From Natronoflexus pectinivorans (GTDB taxonomy: Bacteria; Bacteroidota; Bacteroidia; Bacteroidales; Marinilabiliaceae): a stretch of DNA of 64,000 nt. Below, one piece after another: positions 1 to 23,164 of the stretch. Under the pieces are notes generated by a model. That model made no database searches. It saw only the letters and a program-made list of their open reading frames with translations, and had not been told where the DNA came from. Within the stretch, counting starts at the first letter, position 1; the number at the start of each line of letters is the position of its first letter. A program made the translations under genes and the position numbers. Where the stretch lies: contig NZ_SLWK01000001.1 of assembly GCF_004345615.1 (NCBI RefSeq), positions 682,001 through 746,000 on the forward strand. The letters run 5' to 3'.

Positions 1-996
1 CAAAATTCCTATGATGCCTCCGGCACGATTTACGTCTTCTATATGATAATCGCTATTGGGTGCCACCTTACACAAAACAGGTGTTTTCCTGGAAAGATGA
101 TCAATATCCTGCATAGTAAAATCAACGCCTGCCTCGTGGGCTATAGCCAATAGATGTAAAACGGTGTTTGTTGAACCTCCCATGGCAATATCAAGAGTCA
201 TGGAGTTCATAAATGCGGCCTTGGTGGCAATGTTGCGGGGCAAAACCGACTCATCCCCATCCTGATAATATTTATATGCAAGCCTTACAATTTGATTAGC
301 TGCTTTTTCAAATAGTTTCTTTCTGTTAACGTGCGTTGCTACAATGGTTCCGTTACCGGGTAAAGCCAAACCCAAAGCCTCGTTCAGGCAGTTCATTGAG
401 TTGGCAGTAAACATCCCTGAGCAGGAACCACAAGTTGGACAAGCATTCTGCTCCACCGCAAGTAACTCCTCGTCAGACACTGAATCATCAGCCGCCATCA
501 CCATTGAATCCACTAAGTCCAGAGCTTTATCTCCAACCTTTCCGGCTTCCATGGGGCCACCTGATACAAAAACCACGGGGATGTTTATGCGCATGGCAGC
601 CATTAACATCCCCGGTGTAATTTTATCGCAATTACTGATACAAATCATAGCATCGGCCTGATGGGCGTTAACCATATACTCTACACTATCAGCTATTAAA
701 TCTCGTGAAGGTAAGGAGTACAACATTCCATCATGCCCCATAGCAATGCCATCATCAACGGCAATGGTGTTAAACTCAGCAGCAAAACATCCCTGCTTCT
801 CAATCAATCGCTTCACATCCTGACCAATTTGGTGTAAGTGCGCATGCCCGGGTACAAACTGTGTAAATGAATTTACAACCGCAATCAAAGGACGGCCCAT
901 TTGTTCGTCCTTCATTCCATTGGCTCGCCATAAACTTCTGGCTCCGGCCATTCTTCTTCCCTGTGTGGTTGTATTACTCCTTAATGGTATTTTCAT
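1..996 (-). CDS. ilvD: Dihydroxy-acid dehydratase, 5' part (runs off window start)
   Basis: Converts 2,3-dihydroxy-isovalerate and 2,3-dihydroxy-3-methylvalerate to the 2-oxo acids that lead to valine, leucine and isoleucine; a cytosolic Fe-S enzyme. The 332 codons present (about 60% of the usual 560 or so) contain the family signatures [11 protein letters not shown] and [17 protein letters not shown], whose cysteines bind the cluster. The start chosen is ATG at 996, giving [18 protein letters not shown], the usual N-terminus of the family. The 3' end lies outside the window, where the other ilv genes would be expected. Regulation is visible upstream: a promoter, a leader peptide and a terminator (see those entries) indicate attenuation by branched-chain amino acid supply. 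Identification is firm. Confidence 0.97.
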
Positions 997-1077
997 TTTT
1001 ATGCACTTTTTAAAAGGATACTTCTGTTTGTTAATATTTCAACACCCCGTTCTGCAAGTCAGCTGTTTTATTCAAGC

Positions 1078-1112
1078 AAAAACCCCTCTCACAATGGAAG
1101 TGAGAGGGGTTT
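1078..1112 (-). terminator. Attenuator terminator of the ilvD leader
   Basis: Minus-strand RNA folds into a perfect 13-bp stem (1100-1112 with 1080-1092) around a 7-nt loop, followed by a run of five U (1082-1078). It lies between the leader peptide and ilvD, 82 bases before the ilvD start. Its 5' arm and loop (1096-1105) can instead pair with 1150-1159, so the terminator is conditional. Confidence 0.9.
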
Positions 1113-1159
1113 AAAGTTCGTTTATATCGTTTTACTTTTTACATACCTGTCTCACTTCC
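1096..1159 (-). promoter_or_regulatory. Antiterminator pairing in the ilvD leader
   Basis: The RNA segment GGAAGUGAGA (1159-1150), directly after the leader stop codon, is perfectly complementary over 10 bases to UCUCACUUCC (1105-1096), the 5' arm plus loop of the terminator. A ribosome that reaches the leader stop would cover the first segment and let the terminator form. A ribosome stalled on the Leu/Val/Ile codons upstream would leave it free to form the antiterminator. Pairing is seen in the sequence; the mechanism is inferred. Confidence 0.82.
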
Positions 1160-1219
1160 CTAGTGGTTAACCACGAGAATAATAATGACGACGAGAAGTA
1201 GAGATGCAAAAAGTGTCAT
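1160..1219 (-). CDS. Leader peptide of the ilvD operon
   Basis: A 19-residue ORF, MTLFASLLLVVIIILVVNH, begins at ATG 1219 and stops with TAG at 1160-1162. Twelve of 19 residues are branched chain (five Leu, four Val, three Ile), eleven of them in one run from residue 7 to 17. It sits between a good promoter and a conditional terminator ahead of a branched-chain amino acid gene, the arrangement of the enterobacterial ilv leader peptides. The peptide itself probably has no function; its translation rate reports charged tRNA-Leu, tRNA-Val and tRNA-Ile. It is too short for ordinary gene calling. The stop codon is placed so that a terminating ribosome would mask the antiterminator segment. Confidence 0.88.
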   Translation of the reverse strand: MTLFASLLLVVIIILVVNH

Positions 1220-1246
1220 GTCTTCTTTTTATTTTTAAATTCTACG

Positions 1247-1276
1247 CAAATATATGAACTTTGTCATTAAATCAAA
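1247..1276 (-). promoter_or_regulatory. Promoter of the ilvD leader transcript
   Basis: On the minus strand TATATTTG (1254-1247) matches the Bacteroidota -7 consensus TAnnTTTG, and TTTG (1276-1273) lies 18 bases upstream as the -33 element. The predicted RNA start is about 20 bases before the leader peptide ATG. Confidence 0.75.
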
Positions 1277-1311
1277 TCAAAACAAGAAAAAAAGTTTCAA
1301 TTTTCTTTCAT

Positions 1312-21856: not shown

Positions 21857-23164
<1,308 letters not shown>

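Follow-up and report, generated by a model that had tools for sequence, protein, structure and literature searches.

A conserved, predicted ribosome-mediated attenuator before the ilvD-led branched-chain amino acid operon of Natronoflexus pectinivorans

The stretch of DNA analysed here (64 kb, hereafter the window) comes from a genome of 4.47 Mb in 46 contigs, and the region of interest lies on its minus strand, between a gene at 2163-1441 and ilvD, which starts at 996 and runs off the window. In the genome beyond the window, the operon continues on the same strand throughout as ilvD-ilvB-ilvN-ilvC-leuA-leuC-leuD-cimA, its last gene being citramalate-synthase-like. As it carries ilv and leu genes together with cimA, the operon serves leucine, valine and isoleucine, i.e., the three amino acids whose codons form an uninterrupted run in a short open reading frame upstream of ilvD. 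In the 245 bases upstream of ilvD, the minus strand holds a TAnnTTTG promoter, this 19-codon leader, an antiterminator arm and a terminator. A sequence-only reading had proposed a branched-chain amino acid attenuator from these elements; upon re-reading the sequence, every coordinate it gave was correct and every element it named was present. A perfect-looking palindrome with A/T tails on both strands (1307-1341) also lies between promoter and upstream gene, and is probably the terminator of gene 2163-1441. The features are as follows, with arms numbered in order of transcription.

1..996, minus strand: ilvD (dihydroxy-acid dehydratase), first 332 codons, running off the window
1078..1082, minus strand: T run of five T, overlapping the hairpin base, from the sequence
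1080..1112, minus strand: terminator hairpin, with arm 3 at 1112-1100, loop at 1099-1093 (TTCCATT) and arm 4 at 1092-1080, from the sequence and covariation
1134..1159, minus strand: arm 2, comprising GGAAGTGAGA at 1159-1150 and GGT at 1147-1145 (antiterminator), then ATGTAAAAAGT at 1144-1134 (pairs with arm 1)
1160..1219, minus strand: leader ORF MTLFASLLLVVIIILVVNH, stop codon TAG at 1162-1160, from the sequence and conserved before ilvD in relatives
1165..1201, minus strand: control codons, eleven Leu/Val/Ile codons, from the sequence
1204..1214, minus strand: outer part of arm 1 (leader codons), pairing with 1144-1134, from duplex and synonymous-codon tests
1247..1254, minus strand: -7 element TATATTTG (TAnnTTTG), read from the sequence
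1273..1276, minus strand: -33 element TTTG of the presumed promoter, read from the sequence

Applying to 1276-1247 what we take to be the promoter consensus (-33 TTTG, -7 TAnnTTTG), we find an exact -7 element at 1254-1247 preceded by the -33 TTTG at 1276-1273, as the sequence-only reading had it. This arrangement recurs among relatives: 82 of 101 loci have a TAnnTTTG in the 60 nt before the leader ATG, where 100 shuffles average 3.2 loci and never exceed 9; of the 92 loci with such an element no further than 90 nt away, 77 also carry a TTG 15-26 nt upstream of it. The leader start is preceded by an A-rich stretch, with no Shine-Dalgarno site; most genes in Bacteroidota lack Shine-Dalgarno-led initiation.

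Of its 19 codons, the leader devotes 12 to Leu, Val or Ile, 11 of them consecutive (LLLVVIIILVV), and thus carries, before an ilv-leu operon, a cluster of codons for what that operon makes. Across all six reading frames of the window (64 kb), there is no second Leu/Ile/Val run of at least 11, and 20 mononucleotide shuffles yielded none. To follow the leader in relatives, IlvD was searched in 61 genomes (47 with a match) and in 71 genomes of the family (67 with a match), yielding a family/order sample of 81 ilvD upstream regions from 80 genomes. A rule demanding an ATG, 8-60 codons and a Leu/Ile/Val run of at least 4 within 320 nt found leaders in 74 of these 81 regions, in 16 when the opposite strand was read and in 8 once the sequences were shuffled. 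The corresponding counts by a second rule were 74, 11 and 10. Four more leaders were recognised by eye, one with a GTG start, and three regions (L041, L048, L164) had no leader before ilvD by either rule or eye. At L048 and L164, a short ORF remains before ilvD and a terminator was not seen. At another locus (L049 of genome G058, positions 1-500), tandem attenuators precede ilvD, the first with a GTG start and each with its own terminator.

Further afield, we took the best 80 of at least 597 IlvD loci, 50 of them named as Bacteroidota and 30 otherwise; taxon names are those of the records, and some bins are possibly misnamed. Among these best 80, the first rule picked out 19 of the 50 Bacteroidota-named loci, including records named Bacteroides, Phocaeicola, Odoribacter and Alistipes, and 3 of the 30 from other phyla (L059, L089, L113), none of which is leader-like by eye. 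Prevotella-named records among the same best 80 of at least 597 had no leader by this rule. Together, 78 leaders from the family/order sample and 23 chosen by eye from the 80 further loci formed the set of 101 used for the pairing analyses. Upon alignment of these relatives, the leader ORF and the two pairings foreseen by the sequence-only reading (antiterminator and terminator) proved conserved, with compensatory changes present.

Directly after the leader stop codon lies GGAAGTGAGA (1159-1150), of which TCTCACTTCC (1105-1096) is a perfect 10-bp complement; this match is extended by GGT:ACC past a small internal loop. Arm 2 thereby pairs with arm 3 and the terminator loop, whereas in the terminator itself arm 3 pairs with arm 4 in a 13-bp stem followed by the T run. 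There is, then, an intrinsic terminator before the first structural gene and an antiterminator that excludes it. The arm-terminator duplex has an energy of -21.5 kcal/mol; dinucleotide shuffles of the arm region average -9.4, and none of 200 reaches the native value. Across the 100 leaders with a hairpin, each compared with 200 shuffles, no shuffle was as good in 39, at most 2 were in 64 and at most 10 were in 83. Within the interval searched, the antiterminator was weak or absent at some loci, such as L028 (155/200 shuffles as good), where the arm lies inside the ORF, and L044 (47/200). Quite different arms at L043, L047, L073 and L097 still match their own terminators.

A terminator finder requiring four T had missed or misplaced the hairpin at L010, L074, L080, L132, L137, L153, L157 and L163; of these, L074 is the leader of Bacteroides graminisolvens DSM 19988, a cultivable relative. 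With a looser hairpin rule, seven of nine loci had a sound or unchanged hairpin, L153 was still misplaced and L163 had none; alignment A1 therefore holds 97 distinct leaders, leaving out L153, L163 and two duplicates of other leaders. In A1, changes on both sides are seen at all 12 terminator pairs, with a covariation score of 0.369 compared with 0.205 after shuffling (0/500 shuffles reach it). For the antiterminator, covariation is 0.161 compared with 0.117 shuffled (0/500 reach it) and 0.094 in the best slid register; 80.8% of its cells are paired compared with 76.5% shuffled, and both-side changes occur at 10 of 14 pairs, a count reached by 18/500 shuffles. An internal loop in the antiterminator shows at alignment pairs 36-106, open in 29 sequences, and 37-105, open in 61. 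Arms were also swapped among 61 leaders less than 75% identical: own arms bound their terminators at -17.7 kcal/mol compared with -14.0 for foreign arms (0/20000 permutations as good), beating the median foreign arm in 50/61 leaders and every other arm in 10/61. The result was the same (0/20000) for the terminator loop and closing bases only, whose pairing with the arm is hardly explained by the terminator stem.

A leader acting mainly on ilvD translation or mRNA stability, with a hairpin that is only partly a terminator, might be read from relatives in which the T run is interrupted (L010, L132). We regard this as very improbable, given a hairpin with a T run whose 12 pairs all covary and which ends 84 nt before the ilvD start, leaving that start uncovered.

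The attenuator reading gains a third stem from the leader codons themselves. Bases 1144-1134, adjoining the antiterminator part of the arm, pair with 1214-1204 over 11 bp with one G-U, and further arm and ORF bases pair as well; in relatives, the first half of the leader ORF likewise finds its partner in the GGTRTGTA-like bases that follow the arm. The sequence-only reading had described two pairings, terminator and antiterminator, both of which are borne out, but it missed this one. As RNAalifold on 46 aligned leaders recovered little of the 1:2 stem (just 4 pairs, none changed on both sides), owing to a register that differs between loci, a synonymous-codon test was used instead. Compared with synonymous shuffles, native leaders pair more strongly with arm 2 (mean z -1.52, s.e. 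0.13, 92% below zero), as they do when synonyms are permuted within each leader (z -1.27, 90% below zero); controls gave z values of 0.14 for the reversed arm, 0.01 for the stretch before the ATG and 0.08 for the stretch after the terminator. Own 1:2 partners also pair better than foreign ones (-20.60 compared with -16.05 kcal/mol, 0/5000 permutations). The corresponding swap controls gave 4164/5000 for the stretch after the terminator and 63/5000 for that before the ATG, the latter indicating that relatedness contributes a little. Codon choice in the leader is thus under selection for pairing with the antiterminator arm, which completes a full three-stem attenuator.

Measured from the first base of the final control codon, the arm core lies 16-18 nt away in 67 of 95 loci (range 10-24). 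The distance from stop to arm core runs from -26 to +15 in the same 95 loci, with the ORF extending through the arm in 17; in 32, the core starts at the second base of the stop codon, such that stop and arm overlap. The stop had been proposed to sit where a terminating ribosome would mask the arm. It does adjoin the arm here, but its position is not conserved and the arm lies inside the ORF in those 17 loci; the constrained feature is the distance from control codons to arm, not the position of the stop. A ribosome covers ~13 nt past the first base of its A-site codon, and with a spacing of 16-18 nt a stall at any control codon would therefore leave the core free. Control codons are thus placed such that a stalled ribosome would free arm 2 and one finishing the ORF would cover it.

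Folding with ribosome footprints imposed agrees in part. With arm 4 absent, the 2:3 pairing formed in 58/61 leaders with the ribosome in mid-run, in 50/61 with it at the last control codon and in 14/61 with it at the stop. Counting against this contrast, 2:3 still formed in 44/61 without a ribosome under the same equilibrium folding. With the whole terminator present, the terminator won in 61 of 61 leaders with no ribosome, 54 in mid-run, 61 at the last codon and 60 at the stop; as it prevails at equilibrium in every ribosome state, any switch must be kinetic.

We are thus confident that the element before the ilvDBNC-leuACD-cimA operon is a ribosome-mediated transcription attenuator of classic type, one that would respond to starvation. 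The amino acid sensing, ribosome stalling and readthrough switch that we infer would proceed as follows. RNA polymerase would start near 1240 and transcribe the leader ORF. With Leu-, Val- and Ile-tRNAs charged, the ribosome would reach the end of the ORF and cover arm 2, leaving arm 3 to pair with arm 4 and transcription to end near 1078. Were any of the three tRNAs scarce, the ribosome would stall in the run, breaking 1:2 and freeing arm 2 to capture arm 3 and the loop before arm 4 is made, and polymerase would continue into ilvD. Without translation, 1:2 would sequester arm 2 and the terminator would be favoured.

Attenuators of this kind appear to precede other operons as well. Searching 296 Bacteroidota genomes with a model built from arm and terminator (R1) gave a match at E <=0.001 in 46. 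Among 29 loci read from these genomes (L174-L202), the next gene fits the leader in 23 (ilvD 11, trpE 7, ilvE 2, metY 2, thrA 1), whereas L187, L192 and L198-L201 fit no leader-gene combination. Weaker R1 matches (L203-L222) fit in 6 of 20 (leuA 2, and thrA, ilvA, ilvE and trpE) and fail to in the other 14. Secondary matches picked from the family search (L223-L231) fit in 6 of 9 (leuA 3, pheA 3), with no leader-gene fit at L228, L231 and L225, the last having an Ile-rich leader and no gene found. One such match (L223) is a second attenuator in genome G002, ~7.5 kb downstream of its ilvD one. NCBIfam supplied the names for L176 and L180 (ilvD), L177 (trpE), L178 and L220 (ilvE), L203 (leuA), L209 (ilvA), L186 (O-acetylhomoserine sulfhydrylase) and L195 (aspartate kinase); the remaining genes were named by eye.

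In these loci, control codons follow the next gene: Leu before leuA, Trp before trpE, Phe/Tyr before pheA, Thr before thrA and Ile/Val before ilvA and ilvE. Stand-alone leuA genes (L203, L204, L226, L227) have leaders of their own, Leu-rich at L226 (LLGGLLLV) and L227 (LLGLLLLV). Before metY at L186 and L197, leaders with Met/Cys runs (MCMMMCCAC and MCMMMCCCC) are accompanied by an arm and a terminator, and these are possible attenuators for sulfur amino acids. In the N. pectinivorans genome itself, the leader before hisG, MIFIHHSNAHHHLLS, is rich in His and accompanied by a hairpin and T run (C1:215432-215511, minus strand; locus L170; R1 E 0.86), and pheA has the leader MKRYTSYFYYFFFFFFWFYGQKRWVLCFPEQEMK containing YFYYFFFFFFWFY, with a GC-rich hairpin and a T run after it (locus L232, contig C7), ~245 nt upstream of the prephenate dehydratase domain. 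Five of the seven R1 loci in this genome (L167-L169, L171, L173; the seven include the ilvD one) fit nothing, and no such leader was seen there before trpE, three aspartate kinases or three metY-like genes. The window also holds a second O-acetylhomoserine sulfhydrylase-like gene (21896-23149, plus strand), without a leader peptide.

These leaders bear on whether the ORF might instead be the gene for a small hydrophobic (membrane) protein, complete with terminator, the arm pairing being incidental. The product of MTLFASLLLVVIIILVVNH is indeed hydrophobic and resembles one short membrane segment. However, the arm co-evolves with the terminator in both the full and loop-only swap tests, codon choice is selected for pairing, and across the phylum the residue in which such leaders are rich (Trp, Phe, Thr or His) changes with the next gene; we therefore reject a stand-alone small protein and hold this origin of the ORF to be highly unlikely. 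Least credible of all is a translation-independent riboswitch or T-box that senses amino acids or tRNA with the ORF as a by-product, since despite the similar terminator/antiterminator geometry of riboswitches, what is conserved is a control-codon ORF plus three simple stems, the alignments have no aptamer-like core, and no Rfam 15 family attains its gathering cut-off within the window. The best sub-threshold match was His_leader (RF00514), at 28.9 bits against a cut-off of 49, and we take such matches as a generic leader-terminator resemblance. Bacteroid-trp (RF01692), presumably a trp attenuator, has no match at its gathering cut-off in the window or the N. pectinivorans genome.

The mechanism of ribosome-mediated attenuation itself is textbook. 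In the enterobacterial ilvGMEDA, ilvBN and leu attenuators, leader peptides are rich in the regulated amino acids and arms pair as 1:2, 2:3 and 3:4. The ilvD element shares with these the codon-rich leader, the three pairings and the terminator before the first structural gene; it differs in having ilvD first, in the union of ilv, leu and cimA in one operon, in its TAnnTTTG promoter and in its A-rich start. Upstream of Staphylococcus aureus ilvD, one study describes a leader peptide with Ile/Leu codons and a terminator, with promoter activity rising on Leu depletion, also with leader mutations (PMC5794164). There, the T tail is the proposed partner of the antiterminator and the hairpin stays intact (PMC5794164), whereas here arm 2 takes the 5' arm and loop of the terminator. 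Leader and ilvB motifs at Corynebacterium ilvBNC are likewise described as uORF-based control of a branched-chain amino acid operon, in a different phylum and with a different first gene (PMC10272879).

For Bacteroidota, published studies list Bacteroid-trp as a cis-regulatory motif in 2010 (PMC2864571), mention leader-like sORFs in B. thetaiotaomicron (PMC7366714) and report strong clues for leader-peptide attenuation before amino acid operons of Flavobacterium psychrophilum (PMC9723704). Elements before pheA and hisG are named in the relevant section of the latter, an ilvD leader not being among those named in that section (PMC9723704). In the literature searched, which included few subscription papers, we found no Bacteroidota ilv or leu attenuator named; the survey by Lopatovskaya et al. 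(2010) may include Bacteroidetes cases. The ilvD attenuator is thus a well-supported addition in a phylum for which that literature gives hints of attenuation.

Ultimately, our analysis describes a conserved attenuator of classic type in a little-studied phylum, which would explain how one promoter answers to three amino acids together. The leaders found before other operons suggest, from their codons and predicted stems, that attenuation is a common means of amino acid control in Bacteroidota. On balance, we lean toward the view that amino acid synthesis in this phylum is widely under ribosome-mediated attenuation, through one three-stem design with codons swapped per operon (ilvD, leuA, ilvE, ilvA, trpE, pheA, hisG and thrA), the Met/Cys leaders of metY being maybe a new specificity. 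Because attenuation of this sort depends on a ribosome following the polymerase closely, each leader would serve as a natural reporter of transcription-translation coupling, and phylum-wide attenuation, if true, would mean that this coupling is close in Bacteroidota.
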